From: Rhizobium sp. NRK18
GTDB lineage: Bacteria; Pseudomonadota; Alphaproteobacteria; Rhizobiales; Rhizobiaceae
Assembly: GCF_024385575.1 (NCBI RefSeq)
Contig: NZ_JANFMV010000001.1
Coordinates: forward strand, 3,191,681 to 3,255,680
Reading direction: 5' to 3'
DNA: 64,000 nucleotides
Each line of letters begins with the position of its first letter. The first letter of the stretch is position 1. The notes beneath the pieces were generated by a model. It ran no database searches. It saw nothing but the letters and a program-made list of their open reading frames with translations, and was not told the DNA's origin. Positions 41,773 through 64,000 of the stretch are shown piece after piece. The position numbers and the translations under genes are program-made.

Positions 41773-42329
41773 CGGAATGACCTATTGCATCGGAATGATC
41801 CTGCGGCGGTCGCCGACAGGCACCAGGAGCCCAACCTAGAGTTCTCATCCCTCAGCCTGGTCTAGGCCTCAAGAATCGAACTCGCACAGCCGGCGATACT
41901 TTCTGTGCGAGAAGCGCGTGCGTGCCCCTCCTGGCTCGTTGACGCACAACGCCAAATGCCAAGCACCCCAGACGCGGTCGCCCTAGCGGCAGATAGCTTG
42001 AGAAACTCGATCCGCCGTTGTTGTGCGTAGTGCCGCTCTCTCGGGCCGACAGGAGGCCGCCTCCTGCCATCAGCTCGGCATATGCCACCAACTTCCTCGA
42101 CATAGCCAGCGCCACCGGACCGGGGAACGGCAGCGATCCTAGGGATCGACCGACTGATCTACGGGTAGAACGGTAGCCACAGCGCCGCCTCGGCAACGAG
42201 GCTTGTTACCAGTTGCACGGCTAGGCATTTAGAGTTGATCACCCGTTGAAAAACTTGATCATCACTAAAGGGTATCGTATAGTCTTAATCACGAATTCCC
42301 CTACCCTTCCTACACGAGACCTACCCCTT
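41773..42329. other. Non-coding gap before the serine recombinase
   Basis: 557 bp with no supportable gene; probably decayed mobile DNA plus the recombinase promoter. No inverted repeats long enough to be transposon ends were noticed. Confidence 0.5.
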
Positions 42330-45000: not shown

Positions 45001-48000
45001 CTAAAGCTCGCTTCCCAATTCAGCATCCTCCAGAGCCTGGCCGATGGCTCGCGCAAGTTCTGGTCCCAATCTTTGGTAACCGAGGAGATTTGCTACCGCA
45101 CGTGTCAGATCCTCACGTGACATCTCGCCACTCTCCTTTACGATCAGCTCCGCAGCGGTGGTGATCTCCATTGGTGGCAAGTATTCGGCCTTGAGAAGCG
45201 CGCCTTCGACATTGGAACGGTCCCGGATCGGAATATCATCCTGTTGTTGAAGTGTGAATAGAAACTGCTCCTGCCGCCGTAAGTCAGAGCCTTGCCGCAG
45301 AGCATAATTTATCGCCTTGTTGGCGACCTCCTGGATTCGATTGCCGGTGCGGCTCTTGCCAAAAGCTGCAGCGATCCTCCGAGCCACCTCTTCTGCGTGG
45401 ATTGGTCCTTCAATTTCAATTATCTGAGTGACCAGTTTAGCGAGATAGCCGATTGGCGCCTCATGCGGCTCACCGTTGAAATTGGCGATGGGTTCGGCTT
45501 TCCGATAGGGAGTCCCGGCAAGCACAAGATGATCGAGAGAAATCTCTTGTATTCCGCCTCCCGCTTCGACTGAGAAATCATCAGGGCTTTCAACTTGCGC
45601 TCCGGGAGCTTCAAATTTCGCCGAAGCGTCTAATGCCTCCCTCGCCTTAGCCAGAGTTTCCCTCAGTCGCTGAACTTCGCGCTGTCGATCATGAAACCAG
45701 TCTGTGCTCCAGATCCTATGAAATCGCCAACCAAGGCCCTCTAGAACCTCCTGGCGTAGTCGATCACGTTCACGCGCCCAAAGGGCGGAGTGGTAGGCAG
45801 CTCCATCACACTCTACAGCGAGTATGTATTGCGCGGGGCGTTCAGGATGACGAACGCCGATATCAATTCGGAAGCCTGATGACCCAACCTGCGGATCAGC
45901 TTCATACCCCAAAGAGCGAATAACTGCTGCAACATCTTCCTCGAAGGGGCTATCAGCGCCGAGACCAGTCGCAGCTTTCTCGTCCATGATGCCTGTTTTG
46001 GCAAAGTCCAGGAACCGCTTTAGAACTCGAAGCCCGTCGCGACTGGACCGACTTGGGTCGATGTCCGCAGGATCAAATGAAATGAAGACCTCACATCGCG
46101 TGCGTGCGCGACTGAACAAAACGTTCAATCGACGGCCGCCACCTTCTCCATTGATTGGGCCGAAGGCCATGCTGGTCAGCCTACCGCCGGCGACTTGGGG
46201 GCCATAACCCACAGATATCATGATGACATCTCGTTCGTCCCCCTGAACGTTTTCGATGTTTTTCACAAAGAAGTCTTCCGCTCCTCCTGCTAGCAGAAAA
46301 CGATCAAGCGTCCCGTCAGCGCGACGCCTGTTTTCTATGACTTCTGTGATCATATCGGATTGTGCCTTTGAGAAGGCTACGACACCAAGCGACAGCTGCG
46401 GACATGACCTCGCATGCTGAGCAACCGCCGTTGCAATCTCTTCGGCTTCGATCCGATTGGTTCCTGCTCGCCCAAGACCGCTATTTTTGGGAGCGTAGAC
46501 GCCCGCGACACGCTTCAACTTCAGGCCATAATTATCGTCGAGCTGCAGAGGAGACGGCGGAAGTATCAATTCGTCTTCATAAAACTCTGCGTTTGAAACG
46601 CGGATAAGGGACGGGTCTCTTGAACGGTAGTGCCAAGAAAGCATCCGTCGCTTGATACCGCGCGCTTCGCAGAGCGTGAGTATGCTCTCCATATCAGCCG
46701 CGTATGCTGGCGTTCCTTCATCTTCATCAACGTCAGTTTCTGCATCGTCAACCATTCTGTCGAAAAATGATGTGGGCGGCAGCTGCTTCTGGTCACCGAC
46801 GACGACGACTTGCTTCGCCCGGGCTATGCACCCAAAAGAGTCCTCTGGACGAACCTGGGATGCTTCATCGATCACCAATAGGTCGAATTCGACTACCCCA
46901 GCTGGAAGATACTGTGCGACGGAAATTGGACTCATGAGCATAATCGGCTTGATACGCTGCACCATGGACCCTGCATTCTTCATCAGCCACCGAATGGGCT
47001 TATGTCCTTTCTTTCGCCCCACCTCTCCGCGGATGATCCCCATTTCGCCAATGGTCCCTCGCGGCACTCTGTTGCTATGCTCAAGCCGAACCAACTTCCG
47101 GCAATCGGAAATTCGATCTCGTTCCAACTGCGCAAATTCGTCAACAAGCGCATGCCGGTCAAGGTCGCGCAATTTCTCGATCGCGGGATATCGGCGGCGC
47201 GCTTCTGTCCAGCGGGCTTCTGCGCAAGCGAACATGTATTCATTGGTCGCTTCGGTTGGTGTCAGTTGTCCCTGGAGCAGTTTGTCCACGACCGCCTTAG
47301 CGCCAGCAACGGAGGCATTCTCAATGGCACGACACAAACCGACCCACGATGAATATGCTGGGATATCGTTTGCTATCCTCAGAAGATGCGAACTGAAGCT
47401 GGAGAGTTCCAAAACATCGATCTCTTCCTCAAACCCGACAAGACGAAGGTCGAGTTGAAGGCGCGCACAGATTGTCGCCAACGAAGGCCGAACGGAACTG
47501 ACCTGTGATTGCAGCCGAGCTCCGATATCGACAGGATCTCCCAGGACTGAAAGGGCACGAGTTAACTGTGATGCTTCCTGAAAGGCTCCCGCCTTCTGTA
47601 TAGCCGCCAGCCACTCACAGAGGCTCGAAACTTCTCGAAAATCTGTCTTCTCACCTCTCCAGTGTTCCTTAAGTTTAGCACTCAGCCATGCCTCCTCGGA
47701 GGCAAGCAGCGCACGCTTTTGTTGGACGTCAATAAGAATGTCCACTAGCTGGATGCGTTCCTCCGGCTGCTGAGGCAAAGGGCTGGACAAAAGGCTGGAT
47801 AACTCTGCTGATGCTCGTCTATAAGACCCAAACCAGCGCTGCCAAATCGAAGCTTTGCCAGCCACCAGCGAACGGCGAATGGATGAGCATTCCGCTGTCC
47901 AGGCGGCTGCGGAGAACGTTTGCTCTGCTGCTTGGTATGCAGTCTGCCACAGAGAGCCTGTATTCAATGCCTCCTGTAGTCGAGGATCTTCGGCCAAGTC

Positions 48001-49710
48001 GAACAGAACTTCAATGTCGCGCGGCATGTTTACCGGCGCGTCAAGAAGTGTCGTTAGGCCCGTCGCCAATTTCTCAATATCTGAGATCTTGGTTGGGGCG
48101 ATAGTTCCAACCGCATTCGCAATCTTGCTGCTGTCTGAAAGCAAATTTTCAATGGCGACTGCAACCGTTTTTACTTCCGCTTCAAGACGCGCAAGATCTG
48201 TAGGCTGGAGTTGCAGTGCCCTGACGCCGTTGAAAGGATGCCGCCCTGGCGCCCCCGCCTCCAATTGCGCTTGGGCGAGTTTGCCAAGCGCTTGTCGTCC
48301 CCTTTCGCGATCCACCGACCCAAGTTTTTCGAGCCCCTGCAGAGGTATAGACGGGGGACGCACGCCAGCGTTCATGAAGTGGATGATCTCTGCAAGTGCA
48401 CCGAAAGCTGTGTCACCAAACGTGTTCACTGGTGAGTGGAGTAAGTCAGCCAATGCATTCAGTTCGTCGCGAACCTCATGAAGACGGTTCGGACTTGACA
48501 CTCTGGCACCCCCGTGACCGGCTTTCGAAAGCGTGCGCCCTAGTTCCTGAACGACTGCCTTCTTATTTGCAGTTCTGGAATGCAATTCAAGACAGATATC
48601 CCGTAGCCCGCAGTTCACTAGACGGTTGTGAACCACGGATAGTGCCGCCATTTTCTCGGCCACGAACAGAACCGTCTTCCCATCATGCGCTGCGGCAGCA
48701 AGAATATTGGTAATCGTTTGAGATTTCCCAGTGCCTGGTGGGCCCTGCACGACGAGATCGGCACCGCGTCGGACCTCCTCGATGACCTTTGTCTGCGAGG
48801 CGTCGGCGTCGACGACTTGGATGATGTCCGCAGGGCTCAGCAGTTTATCCAGCTTCGCCCCGTCCGGAAAAGTTGGCTCCTCGTGCTCGAAGCCGTTCAA
48901 AAGCAGTCCATTGAGCAGTTTATGCTTTTCGAAAGCATCCCCTGGCCAGTTTTCCAGGTCAAGGTCGTGATGCATGAGCAACTTGGCAAAGGAAAAGAAA
49001 CCAAGTTGCATGCCATCTCGGTCAACCGACCAAGCCAGCTGACCAGAGACCGCCTCTTGAACACTATCGAAATAGCCCGAGGGCAGCCACTCCTCGGTTT
49101 CCTCAATCTCTGGCAGCAGAATGCCAAAGTCTTGTCGTAGCCGCTCCTTCAAAGGCAGGTTCGTCGAGATTTCATCATCTCGCACCCTGAGATCATAGGA
49201 TGAGGTCCGCTCATTGCGCACAAACTCGACCGGCAGCAAAATTAGAGGAGCCTCTCGATAGATCTCAGAAGACGGGCTTTCCTTCCATCTCAAAAATCCA
49301 AGCGCCAGGAACAGGATATTCAGCCCTTGCTCCTCTTCCGCTGTCCGGGCATCCTTCGCCATCCGAAGAAGCCTCCGTGCAAGGCCTTCTGGTCCAAGCG
49401 GAGTTTCCAAAACATCGTCGCGAAGGCGATCATCATCGACCGCATCATCGGGCACATACTCCGCAAGGTGCAGCCCATCATTCTCTTCAGACGACACCCG
49501 GTCCTTGCCCATGGCCTTGAAACGCATGCGCCGACCGCCGGTCTTGAGTATCCGATAGACCTCATCCGACTGCTCGTTGACGATATTGAGACTATTAGAC
49601 CGGGTGTTCGCTCGGTTGACATGGACAAGGCGATTGCGTGTCCCGGTGTCTAGGAGCTTGCGCCTTGCATTGGCGAGAACATTTAGAAGGGACGAGTTTT
49701 CGATGGGCAT
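45001..49710 (-). CDS. DUF4011-type SF1 helicase with Vsr-like nuclease (Hhe-like defence protein)
   Basis: A single giant protein of 1569 residues. It has a DUF4011-like N-terminal part with LLNVLANARRKLLDTGTRNR. The SF1 helicase core is split: Walker A QGPPGTGKSQTITN at about residue 325, then after a long helical insertion Walker B LLVIDEASQVRPEDSFG, VVVVGDQKQLPPTSFF, SWHYRSRDPSLI and NVQGDERDVIMISVGYG. The C-terminal Vsr/DUF559-like nuclease follows (FRIDIGVRHPE, AVECDGAAYHSALWARERDR, GLGWRFHRIWSTDW), then a DUF3320-like tail (EGPIHAEEVARRIAAAFGKS). The order matches the DUF4011-helicase-Vsr architecture reported for the antiphage system Hhe. The ATG at 49710 is chosen over the TTG at 49740. 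Function as phage defence is by family analogy. Confidence 0.9.
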   Translation of the reverse strand: MPIENSSLLNVLANARRKLLDTGTRNRLVHVNRANTRSNSLNIVNEQSDEVYRILKTGGRRMRFKAMGKDRVSSEENDGLHLAEYVPDDAVDDDRLRDDVLETPLGPEGLARRLLRMAKDARTAEEEQGLNILFLALGFLRWKESPSSEIYREAPLILLPVEFVRNERTSSYDLRVRDDEISTNLPLKERLRQDFGILLPEIEETEEWLPSGYFDSVQEAVSGQLAWSVDRDGMQLGFFSFAKLLMHHDLDLENWPGDAFEKHKLLNGLLLNGFEHEEPTFPDGAKLDKLLSPADIIQVVDADASQTKVIEEVRRGADLVVQGPPGTGKSQTITNILAAAAHDGKTVLFVAEKMAALSVVHNRLVNCGLRDICLELHSRTANKKAVVQELGRTLSKAGHGGARVSSPNRLHEVRDELNALADLLHSPVNTFGDTAFGALAEIIHFMNAGVRPPSIPLQGLEKLGSVDRERGRQALGKLAQAQLEAGAPGRHPFNGVRALQLQPTDLARLEAEVKTVAVAIENLLSDSSKIANAVGTIAPTKISDIEKLATGLTTLLDAPVNMPRDIEVLFDLAEDPRLQEALNTGSLWQTAYQAAEQTFSAAAWTAECSSIRRSLVAGKASIWQRWFGSYRRASAELSSLLSSPLPQQPEERIQLVDILIDVQQKRALLASEEAWLSAKLKEHWRGEKTDFREVSSLCEWLAAIQKAGAFQEASQLTRALSVLGDPVDIGARLQSQVSSVRPSLATICARLQLDLRLVGFEEEIDVLELSSFSSHLLRIANDIPAYSSWVGLCRAIENASVAGAKAVVDKLLQGQLTPTEATNEYMFACAEARWTEARRRYPAIEKLRDLDRHALVDEFAQLERDRISDCRKLVRLEHSNRVPRGTIGEMGIIRGEVGRKKGHKPIRWLMKNAGSMVQRIKPIMLMSPISVAQYLPAGVVEFDLLVIDEASQVRPEDSFGCIARAKQVVVVGDQKQLPPTSFFDRMVDDAETDVDEDEGTPAYAADMESILTLCEARGIKRRMLSWHYRSRDPSLIRVSNAEFYEDELILPPSPLQLDDNYGLKLKRVAGVYAPKNSGLGRAGTNRIEAEEIATAVAQHARSCPQLSLGVVAFSKAQSDMITEVIENRRRADGTLDRFLLAGGAEDFFVKNIENVQGDERDVIMISVGYGPQVAGGRLTSMAFGPINGEGGGRRLNVLFSRARTRCEVFISFDPADIDPSRSSRDGLRVLKRFLDFAKTGIMDEKAATGLGADSPFEEDVAAVIRSLGYEADPQVGSSGFRIDIGVRHPERPAQYILAVECDGAAYHSALWARERDRLRQEVLEGLGWRFHRIWSTDWFHDRQREVQRLRETLAKAREALDASAKFEAPGAQVESPDDFSVEAGGGIQEISLDHLVLAGTPYRKAEPIANFNGEPHEAPIGYLAKLVTQIIEIEGPIHAEEVARRIAAAFGKSRTGNRIQEVANKAINYALRQGSDLRRQEQFLFTLQQQDDIPIRDRSNVEGALLKAEYLPPMEITTAAELIVKESGEMSREDLTRAVANLLGYQRLGPELARAIGQALEDAELGSEL

Positions 49711-49902
49711 GCTGATTCCAAATGCTTGTTTCTTACTCAATCAGTGAGAAAGTGCTTTGCAAGTTATCACCCAGAAGACGTATCAATTTCCATGAAAAAT
49801 TTCGGATTTTCACGTCGATCGAAATTGCTTTCATTGGTGATCCATAATGACGGCAGAACCATTACCGCGCGCAGTCTGATTTCCTACTAGCCAACTCTAG
49901 TC

Positions 49903-50646
49903 TTAAGTCGACGCCTCCACCTTCTCCCACCCCAGCAAGTGCTCGTTCTTGTCGAGCCAGGCCTTGCGCTCCTGCCAGTCCGGCAGCACCTTCCCCACAA
50001 GGTCCCAGAACTCAGGCTCGTGGTTGCGGTGCTTCAGGTGGCACATCTCGTGGACCACGGCGTATTCCAGCACTGGCTTCGGTGAGAAAATCAGGTGCCA
50101 GTTGAGATTGATCTGTCGGTCCTGGCCGCAGCTGCCCCACATGTGCTTCTGGTCCTTGATCTGCACGCCGCGGGGCTTGAGCCCATGGCGCTCGCCATAC
50201 CGGCGGACGAAGTCGCGGGCGTCGTCACGCACGCGGCGCTTCAGCCAGAGCCGGAGAGCGCTCTCGATAATGCTGTCGGATGACTCGGGGGCCAAATTGG
50301 CAGGCTTGCGGATCTGGAAGCCGTTGCGGAAGTTGACCTCGACCAGGGAGCCATCGAAGGGTTCTATGGTGAGTCTGGTCATACGCCCACGATAGGGGAT
50401 CTTGGCGCCGGTCACGAACTGGTAGACGCGCGTCTGTGCCCTGGCGCGTTCTGCCATGTGCTGCACAGTCTCGATGATCCAGGCGCGCCTGCGGTCTAGC
50501 ACGGCGCTGATCTGATCGTCTGTGGCAGCCTCCGGCACCAAGAGCTCGAAGGATTTCGGCGTGACGCTGAGGCTCGCCTTGCGGGCCCTGGGCGATCGCC
50601 TCAGCGTGTATTCGATCTCTTGGGCGCCGATGCGATAGACGGCCAT
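49903..50646 (-). CDS. YgjP/SprT-like zinc metallopeptidase (DUF45)
   Basis: A 247-residue protein with the M48/DUF45-type zinc motif HEMCHLKHRNHEPEFW (about residues 203-218; two His and a catalytic Glu) and the preceding RYGERHGLKPRGVQIKDQKH then MWGSCGQDRQINLNW. This YgjP/WLM-type family is often coded inside type I restriction operons. The start ATG lies 2 bp after the hsdR stop codon, so it is the last gene of hsdM-hsdS-hsdR-peptidase. Its role in restriction is unknown. Confidence 0.9.
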   Translation of the reverse strand: MAVYRIGAQEIEYTLRRSPRARKASLSVTPKSFELLVPEAATDDQISAVLDRRRAWIIETVQHMAERARAQTRVYQFVTGAKIPYRGRMTRLTIEPFDGSLVEVNFRNGFQIRKPANLAPESSDSIIESALRLWLKRRVRDDARDFVRRYGERHGLKPRGVQIKDQKHMWGSCGQDRQINLNWHLIFSPKPVLEYAVVHEMCHLKHRNHEPEFWDLVGKVLPDWQERKAWLDKNEHLLGWEKVEAST

Positions 50647-56485: not shown

Positions 56486-57115
56486 ATGAAGAATAGCACA
56501 CTAGAGCGATCTGCACCGGTTTTAACGCTGGCCTTTACGGGCGTTTGGTTTGGCTATTCGCTACATGATGCGGCGTTTCCGTGGGAGCCTATCGTGGTGG
56601 CTGTTGGAGCGTTTATTGGCTGGCTTGTCCTGGATCTACAGTTATCAAGCCATGCGGTAGCTGCCGCGCAACTTCATCCGCACGATAAAGCCTTAGGCAA
56701 TAAGATGCGAAGCCTATTTGACCAGCCAACACGTCGCTTTCTCAAGGAGCAGAATTTTGGCCAGCCCTTCAAAAGCGATTTGCTAGATAAACTGGAGATT
56801 CTTGCTGATGATTGGCACGGGACGAACTACGAATTCGAGGACGCTAGCCTAGACAACATATCGGCGGAAATCGTTCGGCAGGCGATGGGTTTTTGTAGCA
56901 GGATTGCGGAATATGTCGGCGTGGCTGGCAACTGGCCCCCAGGCCACCTTTCTGTTCCCCTGGATCGCGAACGCGCAGAGGACCAATTTTCAGATGCAAC
57001 TTGGGCTCATATTAAAGAATTAAGAACTTTAGCCGATTCGCTGTTGGGCGAGTATGAGAGGTTCGAGAAGGCCTTCCGTCGACTGGCGCCAGAGGAATAC
57101 CGAAAATTGCATTGA
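56486..57115 (+). CDS. Membrane-anchored hypothetical protein
   Basis: A 209-residue protein of unknown function. Two N-terminal hydrophobic segments (APVLTLAFTGVWFGYSLHDA and IVVAVGAFIGWLVLDLQ) anchor it; the remaining 150 residues are soluble and helical, with HPHDKALGNKMRSLFDQPTR and LRTLADSLLGEYERFEKAFR. No catalytic motif was recognised. It is the only plus-strand gene at the left of the repeat-bracketed cassette, diverging from hsdM, with its own promoter in the 56,431-56,485 gap. Possibly an effector of a defence system, but this is only by position. Confidence 0.6.
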   Translation: MKNSTLERSAPVLTLAFTGVWFGYSLHDAAFPWEPIVVAVGAFIGWLVLDLQLSSHAVAAAQLHPHDKALGNKMRSLFDQPTRRFLKEQNFGQPFKSDLLDKLEILADDWHGTNYEFEDASLDNISAEIVRQAMGFCSRIAEYVGVAGNWPPGHLSVPLDRERAEDQFSDATWAHIKELRTLADSLLGEYERFEKAFRRLAPEEYRKLH

Positions 57116-57148: not shown

Positions 57149-57173
57149 GGAGAGGTGGCAGAGTGGTCGAATG
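57149..57173 (+). pseudogene. tRNA-Ser 5' fragment
   Basis: A 25-nt sequence starting GGAGAGGTGGCAGAGTGGTC matches the first 25 nt (acceptor 5' strand plus D arm) of tRNA-Ser, and of the larger copy at 59312 with one difference at position 21. The anticodon arm and everything beyond are absent. It cannot make a tRNA; probably a recombination scar. Confidence 0.8.
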
Positions 57174-57289: not shown

Positions 57290-57616
57290 CTACGCAGCGT
57301 GAGCCTCACACTGCTTCATCAGCGTATCTAAAAGGGATTTGACCGTTCGATCAGCATGATCATCGCCGGGAAAAAAGACTGCGCGACTGTTGTCTGACAG
57401 AAGTCCAGTCTCCGTTGCTAGAGCCGTTAATGTTTTGCACATATGCGCTATCCGTGTTTCGCTGCAATGGTTACTGACCCGGATTGACCAGCTCTCGATT
57501 GCGGCGGCCGTTAGCCCAGCTAGGCGCTCTTCACGTGCAATACTCGAGGTGTTTACAATCTCAAGCGCTGCGCGTTCTATTTCAATACGCTGCTCAAATC
57601 GTCGAGATCTGCTCAT
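57290..57616 (-). CDS. Small hypothetical protein of the nucleotidyltransferase operon
   Basis: A 108-residue protein, no family recognised. Sequence is mostly helical (RFEQRIEIERAALEIVNTSS and IAREERLAGLTAAAIESWSI), with a C-terminal segment DHADRTVKSLLDTLMKQCEA. Its ATG lies inside the nucleotidyltransferase gene (23-bp overlap), so it is coded in the same transcript as the last gene of three. A partner or antitoxin role is possible but unsupported. Confidence 0.6.
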   Translation of the reverse strand: MSRSRRFEQRIEIERAALEIVNTSSIAREERLAGLTAAAIESWSIRVSNHCSETRIAHMCKTLTALATETGLLSDNSRAVFFPGDDHADRTVKSLLDTLMKQCEAHAA

Positions 57617-58301
57617 CTGTTGCCTCTACTTTTGCGACGGCTCCGGCCACCTCATCACACCATATCAGAAGGTCTCGCTGAACTTCCAGCACTTCCGACG
57701 CAGCGACGTCTGGCGGTATGCTTCCCCTCTGGCTCGCCATTCGGCACTGAAGCATCTTTTCATAGGTCTCCAGTGCAATGGGGAACGGGATTGGAAGTTC
57801 GAAAGGAGAGTAGCGACCGAAAGACGGAGTCCTCCTCAGCCGCCAACTTGCAGCCATCGCAACATTCCGAGCGCAAACGTAAAGAATACCCAGTTCGAAC
57901 ACAGCGTTCGCATGACAAGCTGTTACCCATCGTTCTACACGGCTCGCAATCCCTCTCAAGTCGCAAATATCTGATTGGGCGCTTCTGTAGTCGGCAGGGG
58001 TCCCGAAAAGCTTTTGCAGACTCATTCCGGCGAGTGTTTTGCCTTCCAGGCAAAGATGCCACGCAAAGAGATCACCGGATTCAAAAAGTGCTCTGATCTT
58101 CCGCAGACCATACCATGAGAGAGAGGGCTCCTTACCGAACTCTGCTTTCACGAACTCTCTGACTGGATCCGGTTCGGTCTTACCCGTGCCGTTTTCTACA
58201 ATAACCAATATGTCTAAGTCGCTTTTGGCGTCATTATCGTTGCGCGCGCCTGATCCGAATAGGCTGATGTTAACGATCGAAGGCGGGAGAACAACCGTCA
58301 T
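57594..58301 (-). CDS. Nucleotidyltransferase-domain protein
   Basis: A 235-residue protein with a minimal nucleotidyltransferase core near the N-terminus: ISLFGSGARNDNDAKSDLDI, i.e. GSGAR-N7-DLD, with a further acidic residue in LVIVENGTG. The remainder is helical (SQKLFGTPADYRSAQ-like and WVTACHANAVFELGILYVCA), resembling the KNTase/MNT class with an alpha-helical C-domain. The ATG at 58301 is embedded in the stop codon of the pentapeptide gene (ATGA), giving strict translational coupling. Its target (protein, nucleotide or tRNA) is unknown. Confidence 0.72.
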   Translation of the reverse strand: MTVVLPPSIVNISLFGSGARNDNDAKSDLDILVIVENGTGKTEPDPVREFVKAEFGKEPSLSWYGLRKIRALFESGDLFAWHLCLEGKTLAGMSLQKLFGTPADYRSAQSDICDLRGIASRVERWVTACHANAVFELGILYVCARNVAMAASWRLRRTPSFGRYSPFELPIPFPIALETYEKMLQCRMASQRGSIPPDVAASEVLEVQRDLLIWCDEVAGAVAKVEATDEQISTI

Positions 58302-59161
58302 CTGTGCGACAGCCAACGAAACAAGCCGGAAACCAGAATGCCAAGGCTAACGTAACGAAAGATAACCACTATCCAATCGATCACAACGATATGGTTGAGG
58401 CTTTCTTCATAGGGGGCATCGAGGAAGAGGCTGACATAATATACCATGTAGGACTTAAACACGGTCGTCAGTTGAGAGACCGACGGGTCTGCAATTTGTG
58501 ATGCCCAGACCAGGGATGAAATCAGAGAGAAGACAGCGAGGATTACCAATGCGGAAATAGGGAGGTTCCACAATTTCTCGCCATGTCCCCAGAGAAAGCC
58601 GTCAAGCCACAGGCCGATTCTTTGAATTAATACTGATGCGCGTTTTCGGAAGCCCTTGTATTTGCGCTTATAATAAGCTTCATCCTGCATCCAGGCTCGC
58701 CGTAGGTGTTCCTTTTTAGCGGCGAGTTCGGCGACAACGAAGGCCCTGCCAGCGGACACATCTCCCATCGAAAGAGCATTCTTTCTCAGAATTTGTAAGA
58801 GTTCGCGGCGCACATTTGGCCGTTCAGGAAGGTTCTTGAGAATCTCATCTGTTTCAATCCTGCACCCACTAAAATCTGAGTAGCTAAAATTGCATTCGTC
58901 AAAGTTTGCATTTCGGAAGTTGCAGTCGATGAATCGTGTTCCTGTGAAATTGCATTGCTTGAAAGTAGCTTGATGAAAATAGCCACGGGTAATCAAAGAG
59001 TAAGAGAAGTCCACTTGGTCAAAAGCCTGCGTCTTTCCGCTGACGTCGGTCAGTTGAGCATGCTTGAAAGCAGTGCCTGTCGCATGCTTCAGTTTCTCTG
59101 ATTCAAGTCTGAGCGGCTTAAACGCGATAGTCTGGGTATTGTCAGTTAGGTCGTTAGCCAC
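58298..59161 (-). CDS. Pentapeptide-repeat protein with C-terminal membrane helices
   Basis: A 287-residue protein. Residues 45-105 are A(D/N)LxX-type pentapeptide repeats (YFHQATFKQCNFTGTRFIDC, then NFRNANFDECNFSYSDFSGC), which fold as a right-handed beta-helix. After a basic helical linker (KEHLRRAWMQDEAYYKRKYK), two membrane helices are predicted: PISALVILAVFSLISSLVWA and VVIFRYVSLGILVSGLFRWL, with a region between that may re-enter the membrane. The form recalls pentapeptide-tethered channel-like proteins. GTG start at 59161, weak ribosome binding site. First gene of a three-gene overlapping operon with a nucleotidyltransferase. Confidence 0.72.
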   Translation of the reverse strand: MANDLTDNTQTIAFKPLRLESEKLKHATGTAFKHAQLTDVSGKTQAFDQVDFSYSLITRGYFHQATFKQCNFTGTRFIDCNFRNANFDECNFSYSDFSGCRIETDEILKNLPERPNVRRELLQILRKNALSMGDVSAGRAFVVAELAAKKEHLRRAWMQDEAYYKRKYKGFRKRASVLIQRIGLWLDGFLWGHGEKLWNLPISALVILAVFSLISSLVWASQIADPSVSQLTTVFKSYMVYYVSLFLDAPYEESLNHIVVIDWIVVIFRYVSLGILVSGLFRWLSHR

Positions 59162-59311
59162 GGCTCGCTCATACGTTGATTACCTGAGCAATACACCGGG
59201 AGTGAATGAGGCACAATTGCGCCGCTCAGATATCGCTTTAAAACATGGGTGTGTTCGCCCCGCTCATCGCTATGAGACACCCCGCGCAAATCAAGCGCCG
59301 ACCAGTTATGC

Positions 59312-59403
59312 GGAGAGGTGGCAGAGTGGTCTAATGCACCGCACTCGAAATGCGGCATACGGTCAACCGTATCGGAGGTTCGGATCCCCCCCCTTCTCCG
59401 CCA
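59312..59403 (+). pseudogene. tRNA-Ser (CGA), degenerate
   Basis: Clear tRNA-Ser framework: acceptor GGAGAGG with CTTCTCC, anticodon arm CCGCA-CTCGAAA-TGCGG (anticodon CGA), long variable arm CATACGGTCAACCGTATC and encoded GCCA. But the T loop is TTCGGAT (the near-universal A58 is G), the T stem GGAGG faces CCCCC (a mismatch), and an unbroken run of eight C makes it two bases too long. It may therefore be inactive. The functional copy is probably elsewhere in the genome. It could still be folded and weakly active, which the sequence cannot rule out. Confidence 0.75.
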
Positions 59404-59550: not shown

Positions 59551-60546
59551 CTACCAGTCTCTGAAAGTGAGAACGTCTTCCTTTAGAGTTAAGCTGATTT
59601 CACCGCCTAACTGGTTCGCCCAGAACGGTCCGCGGATGTCATCAAATCCGGCTCCGAGCCATTCTACAACTCTAACTAATTTGCGCCCGCGTTTCTGCGC
59701 GATCAGTTGATTTAAGTGAGTGTCGTTGCCAGAGTAGCCGAAGATCAATATCTCTTCGCTTTCATCAAGCGCCCTTTTTAGAAACTCCCAGTATGTTGTA
59801 AGTATTTCAGATGATGATATTATGTATTTCTTGTGTGTTACGTGCGTTAATACGATATGCCGCCCAACGTTCTTAAGTTTTCTTCCGGGCTTTTCTATAG
59901 ATTCTGGACTTAATTTATGAGGTCTAGATTTATCCCTGTCAACGAATAATGGGCAGCCATGGAGGTGCAGATACCATCCTCCCTGTTCCTTCTGTCTAAA
60001 CATGTTTCTTTTATCAAATTTTTGGTCTACGAACCCGTCCCGAAGAATTTTGTTATTGTCGAGTATGTTCAAGGCCCCAAATGCCGACGAGAGCAGACCG
60101 TCGTAGTTTAATGTTGCGACGTGCGATTGAGTTTCTGTAATCCTCTCGGCTAGACTGTTCGTAAATTCCTCCGGTAAGCAGCATCGTTTTCCAATATTTT
60201 CGCCGTGGCTATGTTTCGCAACAAACATTCGTCGTGCCACTTCAAATCCAAACTGTTGGACAGCGCTGGGGAAATCCAGGCCATGCTGTGATAGCCAATG
60301 GCCAATCTTAGTGGGAGGAATCTCTAGTAGAACCTCACATGCTGCTACAATCTCTTGCAGCTTCGCCAATTGCTCTTCAGATGTCGGCATTTTTGCGCCA
60401 TCTGGAAGGCATGCCAGCATGAGCTTTTTTTGCGCTTCTGTGAGCTGGCCGCTCATCCACGCCGCGGACATTACTGTGTTTAGATTGAACTCGTCGGGCG
60501 CAATTGCCATCCCAAGTCCGTTACCGAATATGAATAGCTTTCTCAT
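59551..60546 (-). CDS. SIR2-like NAD-binding domain protein
   Basis: A 331-residue protein with a SIR2/DUF4917-like plan. The N-terminal nucleotide loop KLFIFGNGLGMAI, the pair HVATLNYDGLLSSAF (residues 142-156, Asn and Asp) and WYLHLHGCPLF (about 191-201, catalytic His candidate), and the C-terminal EILIFGYSGNDTHLNQLI (about 265-282) are all as expected for SIR2-like proteins. Bacterial SIR2-like effectors in Thoeris, DSR and prokaryotic Argonaute systems deplete NAD+ on infection. It starts 1 bp after the upstream gene's stop codon. AT-richer than its neighbours. NADase activity is by family analogy. Confidence 0.85.
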   Translation of the reverse strand: MRKLFIFGNGLGMAIAPDEFNLNTVMSAAWMSGQLTEAQKKLMLACLPDGAKMPTSEEQLAKLQEIVAACEVLLEIPPTKIGHWLSQHGLDFPSAVQQFGFEVARRMFVAKHSHGENIGKRCCLPEEFTNSLAERITETQSHVATLNYDGLLSSAFGALNILDNNKILRDGFVDQKFDKRNMFRQKEQGGWYLHLHGCPLFVDRDKSRPHKLSPESIEKPGRKLKNVGRHIVLTHVTHKKYIISSSEILTTYWEFLKRALDESEEILIFGYSGNDTHLNQLIAQKRGRKLVRVVEWLGAGFDDIRGPFWANQLGGEISLTLKEDVLTFRDW

Positions 60547-60547
60547 C

Positions 60548-61240
60548 TCAGCTATTCTCTATCCAGTTGGCCATGTTCTGCGCAATGCTATTAACAGCTA
60601 ATGGCGCAGTATTGCTTGTTCCAGAATATACCTTTCCCAAAGTTGAATCGAATATCTTGTATGTGTAGTTTGGAGATATCTTCTTAAAGGCTTGCTGCAT
60701 AATATAGCATCCGCAGTTTGCCTTTGATTTATCCAGCTTTGGATTTTGTATTGGCCATATATGGTATACATCCATCCCATTCGGAGTCTCAAGCATGAAG
60801 CTTGGACTTACTCTTACAAGTATTTTTCCATCAGCGAGCTTCAATTGTCCTTTCTTTTCAAACAAAGATATTTTTGTTTTTTTTCCGAACTTAACGTTAA
60901 ACGAATCGAAGGCGGCCTTGTTGTAGCTAATCTCATCCGGCCGTGAAGAACTGTTTAAGATGTAATCTATCTCATCCTTGGACTTCTCCTGGATATGAGC
61001 TGCAATCGCTAGATGCAAATTTCGGTAAAAATCGTATCCGGCTGACGATTGAATTCGTCGCAGCACCTCTGAAATTTGCCGTGCAGGATCCATGGAGTAT
61101 ATTCGTATAAACGAATTCAATGAGAGGGATAGCAACGGTGCTGACATGGAAGCTCTTTGGGCGTTGAATAGGTCAGTTGCGCGTCTTACCGCATTGTTCA
61201 ATTTTGTTTCGTCGAGGTTGTATCCTATTTTGACCAACAA
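60548..61240 (-). CDS. Unknown partner of the SIR2-like protein
   Basis: About 230 residues, no family recognised. The TTG at 61240 is a weak start, so a later start (Met32 at 61147) is possible. The C-terminal part shows a beta-rich region (KKTKISLFEKKGQLKLADGK, ILVRVSPSFMLETPNGMDVY) and a Cys pair in NCGCYIMQQ. It is the first gene of the two-gene AT-rich unit, followed within 1 bp by the SIR2-like gene, so the two are translationally coupled. A sensor or toxin-neutralising role would be plausible. Confidence 0.6.
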   Translation of the reverse strand: MLVKIGYNLDETKLNNAVRRATDLFNAQRASMSAPLLSLSLNSFIRIYSMDPARQISEVLRRIQSSAGYDFYRNLHLAIAAHIQEKSKDEIDYILNSSSRPDEISYNKAAFDSFNVKFGKKTKISLFEKKGQLKLADGKILVRVSPSFMLETPNGMDVYHIWPIQNPKLDKSKANCGCYIMQQAFKKISPNYTYKIFDSTLGKVYSGTSNTAPLAVNSIAQNMANWIENS

Positions 61241-61346
61241 CGTGCGGCTTTTTTGGATTCAGTATCATGGGCAGACTTGACGGATAAGCCTTGGCACCCC
61301 TCCAGGGGCATCCTACGCGTGACCTTTAACATCGTTTGGAGGCTAC

Positions 61347-61612
61347 ATGGCGACGCTCCGGGAGCTCAGAGGACGCGCGCGAGCGCAGGTGCGTCGTCGT
61401 GGTATGAAACCTCGGTGCAATCGTTCGACGGCAAGCTCGAAGCTGAGAAATGGGCCCGCGATCTGGAAGTCCAGGTTGACCGGTTCGGCGCTGCACCTGA
61501 CACGAAGATCCTTGAAAGCACGACGCTGGGGCAGCTCCTAGAGCGCTACCAGCGCGAGATCTCGCCTACCAAGCGCGGGTAGGCTCAAGAGATCCAGCGG
61601 ATCGACGTGTTG
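61347..61612 (+). pseudogene. Tyrosine-integrase N-terminal remnant
   Basis: Broken gene. An ATG at 61347 after a good GGAGG opens MATLRELRGRARAQVRRRGM, the start of a phage-type integrase; the frame then slips (by one base near 61400-61420) into SFDGKLEAEKWARDLEVQVD then RFGAAPDTKILESTTLGQLL, the usual SAM-like N-domain. A stop at 61580-61582 interrupts SPTKRG and is followed by AQEIQRIDVL in the same frame. The catalytic domain is gone: the 34-bp repeat begins two bases after the last recognisable codon. The former integrase of the mobile element, or of an element truncated by its insertion. Confidence 0.75.
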
Positions 61613-63255: not shown

Positions 63256-64000
63256 TCAACTAGCCTGAGGAGCGGCACCAGGCGATGTCTCCAGCATCTG
63301 CAAAATTGGATCAAAATGGTCGAAGATTTTACGCGCGAATAGCGAAACAGACTGCATCATCGTCTCAATGGAAGCATCAATATCTGTTTCGTCATCTGGT
63401 TGTTTTTGATAAATTTCCTTTTTCGCGAGGCAAGTCCAATCCCTGCCCGGCCGGGATGTCGGGCGATGCAGACGCTTCTCATCCAAAATTGTGACGTATC
63501 GTTGGCGGATCTGCTCATCTCCTGGACCGAGGTATAGATAAGCAGCTATCTTCGGACCTTCGCGCTTGAGCTCCAGTAAGATAAACCTCTTGGATTCAGT
63601 CCATCGCGAATTCTTGAAACCGGGAAGGTCATCCCATTGTTCAAACGCCAGTCGAAGAATGGTTTTATAATCGACGTCAAGCATCATTTTGACGCCTGTT
63701 TCCCTGATCGCCGCTAGAAGATCACTTCGTCTATCTTTCAAAGCTTCGAAGAGGTTGCCTGTTTCATCTGGTCTTCGATCAGCAAGAAATTCGAGCGCTT
63801 CGCTGTGCTGTGCCCAAAGCTTTCGCGCAATGTCTTCCAAACGACGATCTTCCAAGTGGTGTCTCCTGAGCATTCGAAGATAGGACCGCAGCATCTGTGC
63901 CGACTGACTGTTGTTGGACTGATCCGCCAGGGGCTGCAGATGTTCAACAAGGTCGCGAATTCGCAGCGGTTCCCAGTGGTCAACATCGGTCGGGGCCTCC
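63256..64000 (-). CDS. PD-(D/E)XK nuclease-superfamily protein (5' end missing)
   Basis: Runs off the right edge: the frame is open to base 64000, giving about 247 residues of C-terminal part. The section RIRDLVEHLQPL, then RSYLRMLRRHHLEDRRLEDI, and KLWAQHSEALEFLADRRPDE is typical of the C-terminal half of the PD-(D/E)XK nuclease family found in defence islands; the usual nuclease core lies upstream, beyond the window. The 3' part (IETMMQSVSLFARKIFDHFD) is helical. The family call rests on resemblance only. Confidence 0.6.
   Translation of the reverse strand, partial: EAPTDVDHWEPLRIRDLVEHLQPLADQSNNSQSAQMLRSYLRMLRRHHLEDRRLEDIARKLWAQHSEALEFLADRRPDETGNLFEALKDRRSDLLAAIRETGVKMMLDVDYKTILRLAFEQWDDLPGFKNSRWTESKRFILLELKREGPKIAAYLYLGPGDEQIRQRYVTILDEKRLHRPTSRPGRDWTCLAKKEIYQKQPDDETDIDASIETMMQSVSLFARKIFDHFDPILQMLETSPGAAPQAS

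Follow-up and report, generated by a model that had tools for sequence, protein, structure and literature searches.

A candidate two-gene antiphage module in Rhizobium sp. NRK18: a SIR2-like protein and a conserved partner with a predicted, apparently degenerate nuclease fold

Does a small, AT-rich gene pair of Rhizobium sp. NRK18, located at 59551 to 61240 of the 64,000-nucleotide stretch analysed here (the window; contig NZ_JANFMV010000001.1, positions 3,191,681 to 3,255,680, forward strand), form a defence system of its own, and what might its two proteins do? The pair is genuine and conserved. The sequence shows that the NADase site in the SIR2_2-type product of the second gene is intact and that a conserved first-gene partner travels with this SIR2 subfamily; the SIR2 half is of a known kind and the partner half is new so far as the searched libraries and papers go. 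The favoured reading, to which a probability of about 0.5 is assigned, is a two-gene module in which the partner senses infection, the SIR2-like protein depletes nicotinamide adenine dinucleotide (NAD+) and the infection aborts.

Reading frames and linkage of the two genes

The partner gene lies transcriptionally upstream of the SIR2-like gene (open frame 60548-61240, minus strand), and as originally predicted its stop is separated from the SIR2 start by one base pair (Table 1). The predicted partner of 230 residues corresponds to this open frame, which exists; its relatives indicate a shorter protein, since 13 of the 16 first found are 200-204 residues long and start near residue 28-30 of the frame, and the TTG at 61240 was therefore ruled out as the start. 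The nearest ATG in the window (residue 32) gives 199 residues and is the likely start by alignment, short of proof because P0001 (the database entry derived from the contig of the window) and P0002 begin at residue 50 (181 residues); the three remaining relatives of the 16 are 181, 181 and 167 residues long. An orphan or mispredicted frame was ruled out by the conserved residues and by 72 proteins at E <= 0.001 in a profile search, the genome's own record P0001 included, so that the partner is not found only here. Three distant partner homologues (P0192-P0194) share 33-37% identity. Promoter and terminator scans returned about the same counts as shuffled sequence.

Four loci from the close SIR2 subfamily were compared at the DNA level: the window, one each in Erythrobacter (L002) and Qipengyuania (L003), and one in a genome of the same family (L020/L028). 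In all four the order is partner then SIR2 on the same strand, with a 1-bp gap in the window and a 4-bp overlap, a 1-bp overlap and a 9-bp gap in the other three; the partner profile matched 4/4 of these loci and 0/14 loci of the distant subfamily (best spurious match E 0.95). Neighbouring locus tags for partner and SIR2 were found in three pairs (Hoeflea, Roseibium and HT1-32). A search of genome contigs with the partner alignment gave two loci, and one with a single SIR2 sequence gave none although L002 and L003 carry one, so that this search was insensitive.

Linkage was also assessed indirectly, by equal size of the longest contig (which is no proof of one contig); 74 partner clusters (the 72 from the profile search plus P0011 and P0014 from the 16 relatives first found) were compared with the best 120 of the 445 SIR2 clusters. 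Among the close SIR2 clusters (>= 50% identity), 30 of 69 had such a match, against 0.64 expected from shifted lengths, as did one of the 51 distant clusters, against 0.47 expected. The distant match, P0123 (42%) with partner P0003 at a contig size of 3631, speaks against a clean split; about 0.5 such coincidence is expected, and it may be real linkage. No size match was listed for 39 of the 69 close SIR2 clusters and for nine of the 17 partner clusters on contigs of at least 10 kb; a SIR2 gene is nevertheless present in the DNA for two of these nine, P0001 (on the window contig) and P0015 (L003), and the other unmatched clusters may reflect clustering, the list cut-off or true solo copies. 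Over 31 pairs, made up of the 30 size-matched ones and the window, family distances of partner and SIR2 were correlated (r 0.876, 0/2000 permutations as high, host descent uncorrected). In a quick tree of 128 rows, 90 of them unlabelled, all 32 partner-labelled rows fell within one 68-row clade (support 95), which argues that the partner has been retained over long divergence; the six partnerless loci included (of 14) all fell in the other main group, the root branch of which is weak.

SIR2-like protein and partner fold

The SIR2_2 domain (PF13289) of the second protein scored 40.9 bits against a curated cut-off of 24.5, and all four motifs named in the original prediction (FGNGLG, LNYDG, HLHG, FGYSGND) were located, with their core letters kept across the family. 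Asn147, Asp149, His196, Gly270 and Asp275 are invariant in the family alignment; the NAD-site residues Asn147 and His196, whose loss would have weakened the case, are present in 121/121 aligned sequences and were equated with N133 and H171 of DSR2 through the NYD and HG motifs. The predicted structure is a confident SIR2 model with a sirtuin Rossmann fold, comprising a single domain of 331 residues without an additional sensor domain; its top fold matches are antiphage NADases, and the top PADLOC match by sequence is Aga_SIR2 (E 1.6e-8). The protein is a probable NAD-destroying enzyme. A YwhD match was ruled out (15 bits, cut-off 25).

For the partner, the original statement that no family is recognised held for the sequence libraries, in which nothing exceeded the cut-off (HicB, E 0.17; PUF, 0.2; LPD16, 0.037; and other labels were sub-cut-off or non-significant), and was incomplete with regard to structure. 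The AlphaFold2 model (predicted local distance difference test 92.2, predicted template modelling score 0.87) matched PD-(D/E)XK nuclease folds of the Cas4/RecB type over the whole partner, and a Cas4/RecB exonuclease fold is accordingly predicted. The catalytic Asp and (Asp/Glu)-x-Lys motif of PD-(D/E)XK exonucleases was not found in the family: none of 74 sequences has Asp or Glu at positions 115-117 or 127-134, and Trp131 occupies the inferred Lys position in all 74. Glu72 and Asn76 are invariant (74/74), and Glu or Asp stands at 120 in 82%. On a mapping drawn from the spacing of the motifs and an alignment short of significance, the canonical His, Asp, Asp/Glu and Lys all appear to be substituted, by Tyr41, Pro115, Asn/His129 and Trp131; the alignment was that with the AddB PDDEXK_1 profile (28 sequences), which sets Tyr41, Pro115, His129 and Trp131 opposite His, Asp, Asp and Lys and lends weak support, while that with a Cas4 profile (5 sequences), likewise non-significant, gave nothing useful. 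The catalytic residues have thus apparently been lost, and because of these replacements the partner should bind rather than cut.

Genomic setting and distribution

The pair (1.6 kb, self-contained) is AT-richer than its surroundings, as predicted, its GC content being 0.44 in a window that, with the pair counted in, has 0.598; only one of 625 segments of 1597 bp was equally AT-rich, and that one overlaps the pair. The adjacent 58500-59250 is likewise low in GC (0.46-0.47). Across the four loci the pair was below the surrounding GC each time (0.44 vs 0.60, 0.49 vs 0.64, 0.49 vs 0.62 and 0.43 vs 0.54). With the window's genome counted, the partner was present in 1/297 genomes of the order (E <= 0.001), and the SIR2 gene in 1/297 of the order (E <= 1e-20), 1/385 of the class (E <= 1e-30) and 2/394 of the family (E <= 1e-30); named organisms among the matches are alphaproteobacteria. 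Being rare and AT-rich, the pair is probably moving horizontally. No confirmed partner copy was found in viral contigs and none in plasmids, and the SIR2 query matched no phage record; a phage-borne pair was rejected on these results.

Table 1. Features of the pair and its surroundings (window positions)
Feature	Position	Strand	Basis or remark
SIR2-like (SIR2_2/PF13289) protein, 331 residues, probable NADase effector by sequence	59551..60546	-	second gene of pair
Spacer of 1 bp, partner stop / SIR2 start	60547..60547	-	reading frames
Partner protein, 199 residues from likely start	60548..61147	-	first gene of pair; start from family alignment
DUF4011/DUF3320 helicase, 1579 residues, with MTES_1575 nuclease domain	45001-49740	-	PADLOC PDC-S37, Hhe-like
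HExxH-type metalloprotease-like open reading frame (ORF) adjoining type I restriction operon	49903-50646	-	motif only; no PADLOC match at E 1e-5
Hydrophobic ORF between type I restriction operon and pair	56486-57115		label by reading of sequence
tRNA-Ser(CGA), 25-bp 5' fragment	57149-57173	+	left of Hailong-like pair
Hailong-like pair, HalB-like nucleotidyltransferase overlapping HalA-like pentapeptide-repeat protein	57594-59161	-	NCBIfam
tRNA-Ser(CGA), diverged extra copy, left edge of pair	59312-59399	+	ARAGORN; 94% to copy at contig 130092
Integrase remnant, right edge of pair	61253-61582	+	tblastn, four plasmid records, 42-72% identity
PDDEXK_4 protein	63256-64000, continuing to 64497 in genome	-	PADLOC candidate PDC-S26, 1.1e-107
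NOV_C protein, next to PDDEXK_4 gene	beyond window		PADLOC PDC-S36, 7.2e-127

The setting is a defence island, since helicase, type I restriction, Hailong-like, PDDEXK_4 and NOV_C genes flank the pair. The type I restriction operon, originally described as packed against the pair, does lie to its left, with the hydrophobic ORF, a small ORF and the Hailong-like pair, unmentioned in the original prediction, in between. The Hailong-like proteins scored far under the NCBIfam cut-offs (HalB 43.1 bits, cut-off 190; HalA 38 bits, cut-off 250), and the pair is classed as a divergent relative; the C-terminal part of the HalA-like protein is hydrophobic by reading of the sequence. The Hailong-like pair is flanked by the tRNA-Ser(CGA) fragment and the diverged full copy. 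The tRNA called degenerate in the original prediction is indeed a diverged extra copy (a better-paired one lies at contig position 130092) and is still called tRNA-Ser(CGA) by ARAGORN. It is perhaps an integration footprint; in L021 no tRNA 3'-end repeat bounding an element was found besides the copy itself, and the window contained no copy of the standard tRNA 3' end even with 3 mismatches allowed. The predicted broken integrase is supported: two of its four plasmid matches are annotated as site-specific integrase and two are in two pieces. A full-length integrase gene also lies right of the pair. In L002 and L003 the pair stands between a divergent HNH gene and lepA (HNH domain scanned in L002 only, lepA by reading), and in L028 its neighbours are transposase-like ORFs (by reading) and a gene for an exonuclease that matches PDC-S48.

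Proposed mechanism, known systems and alternatives

From the conserved NADase site, the coupled gene and the degenerate nuclease-fold model, which sequence and prediction provide, we infer a complex, inhibition at rest, a trigger, NADase activity and defence. Partner and SIR2-like protein would form a complex in which the partner holds the NADase off at rest; the cue met on infection by the remodelled nuclease cleft of the partner would most likely be the end of a phage DNA or a single-stranded intermediate, possibly a nucleotide; the SIR2 oligomer would then be switched on, NAD+ depleted and the infection aborted. Such a module would follow the scheme of SIR2-HerA, whose partner processes DNA, of SPARSA, whose partner senses nucleic acid, and of Kongming, with a different sensor. 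The original suggestion of an undescribed defence pair is in part supported, by linkage and by the defence-island setting, with phage defence and NAD+ depletion as its conjectural part.

Known SIR2 systems were sought by a neighbour scan of 16 selected ORFs from window position 42246 to the place corresponding to 69602 (for two of the restriction subunits, the best 25 families were considered). Kongming has three components, KomA, KomB (which is HAM1-like) and KomC, whereas the pair has no third gene and its partner is predicted to fold differently; the matches listed for the partner model are PD-(D/E)XK folds, HAM1 not among them, in a 2023 library that may lack a HAM1-like family. According to PMC12948488, dITP binds KomB and KomC is thereby activated, and the SLOG domain belongs to ThsA; for Thoeris, neither a TIR (ThsB) nor a SLOG match was found among the ORFs scanned. 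SIR2-HerA (Nezha), a precedent for SIR2 defence with a DNA-processing partner (PMC11559045), has the HerA ATPase/helicase as partner; no scanned neighbour matched HerA, and the gene adjoining SIR2 here encodes a PD-(D/E)XK-fold protein without a motor domain. SPARSA (SIR2-APAZ with a short prokaryotic Argonaute, pAgo) resembles the pair in the Aga_SIR2 match and would resemble it in having a nucleic-acid-sensing partner (PMC10781750); no pAgo or APAZ match was found among the scanned neighbours, and the SIR2-like protein lacks a second domain. DSR2 (a chain of ~950 residues) and ThsA (473 residues) carry further regions in the same chain, in contrast to the 331 residues and separate partner here, and the size of ~1000 residues and large C-terminal sensor region of DSR1/DSR2 are absent from this single-domain protein. 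With HerA, pAgo/APAZ and TIR/SLOG not found among the scanned neighbours, Nezha, SPARSA and Thoeris were rejected as the identity of the pair. The SIRim class and human FAM118, SIR2_2 sirtuins that lack a zinc module and are proposed to be NADases (PMC12700824), resemble the SIR2-like protein in these traits; FAM118A/B are two sirtuins, whereas the partner here is not a sirtuin. Over its whole length the partner has the same predicted fold as ACE1, an Argonaute-associated Cas4 family protein (PDB 9iac, 9iab), and the Cas4, RecB and Dna2 nucleases, but its catalytic motifs are apparently lost and it is coupled to SIR2, not to Argonaute or Cas1/Cas2.

In a toxin-antitoxin type of pair, the partner would be the antitoxin of a constitutively active SIR2 NADase, and partner loss rather than a cue would trigger NAD+ loss, with defence secondary if any. 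The first position of the partner gene and the tight spacing in 4/4 loci are compatible with this, as is a rare, AT-rich, probably mobile pair. Partnerless SIR2 relatives of ~35-39% identity persist, however, in 13 viral-contig (prophage-like) loci and one Marinobacter plasmid (L006-L019), so that such SIR2 proteins need not be toxic alone, and three invariant partner residues map to what would once have been active-site positions, pointing to a ligand site in addition to any inhibitory surface; this account is considered unlikely. In four of the stand-alone loci (L013, L014, L015, L017) the SIR2 gene follows a small ORF that is probably H-NS/MvaT-like. The same relatives, one of which (the L006 version) occurs in 45/5426 E. 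coli genomes, would fit a SIR2 protein that senses phage itself, its accessory partner merely stabilising it or countering a phage inhibitor; the absence of an extra sensor domain from the model and the confinement of the 32 partner-labelled rows to one clade make this improbable. A non-defence role, in which the SIR2-type protein would act as an ADP-ribosyl transferase or deacylase in housekeeping or for a mobile element, would agree poorly with the patchy presence, the foreign composition, the defence-island setting and the antiphage NADases among the top fold matches, and is given little credence. A dual effector, in which the partner would be active as a nuclease through a catalytic site that has migrated and the SIR2 protein would be the second effector, as the partner's fold, Glu72, Asn76 and the frequent acidic residue at 120 might suggest, is very improbable with every inferred canonical position substituted and neither Asp nor Glu at 115-117 or 127-134.

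The sensing module described above thus stays the preferred reading. More tentatively, and with some doubt, it may represent a class of SIR2 defence that has not been described before: a catalytically dead Cas4/RecB-fold partner, its cleft remade with Tyr, Pro, Asn/His and Trp, would sense infection, for example by gripping phage DNA ends uncut, and switch on NAD+ depletion. No paper on the partner-SIR2 pairing was found among the listed results of searches of the open-licence PubMed Central literature, which, with terms partly narrow, is weak evidence of absence. SIR2 NADases are recurrent antiphage effectors whose sensors vary between systems. If true, a pseudonuclease sensor would give them a new input module and connect the Cas4/RecB fold, familiar from DNA-end processing, with alarm signalling rather than cutting.
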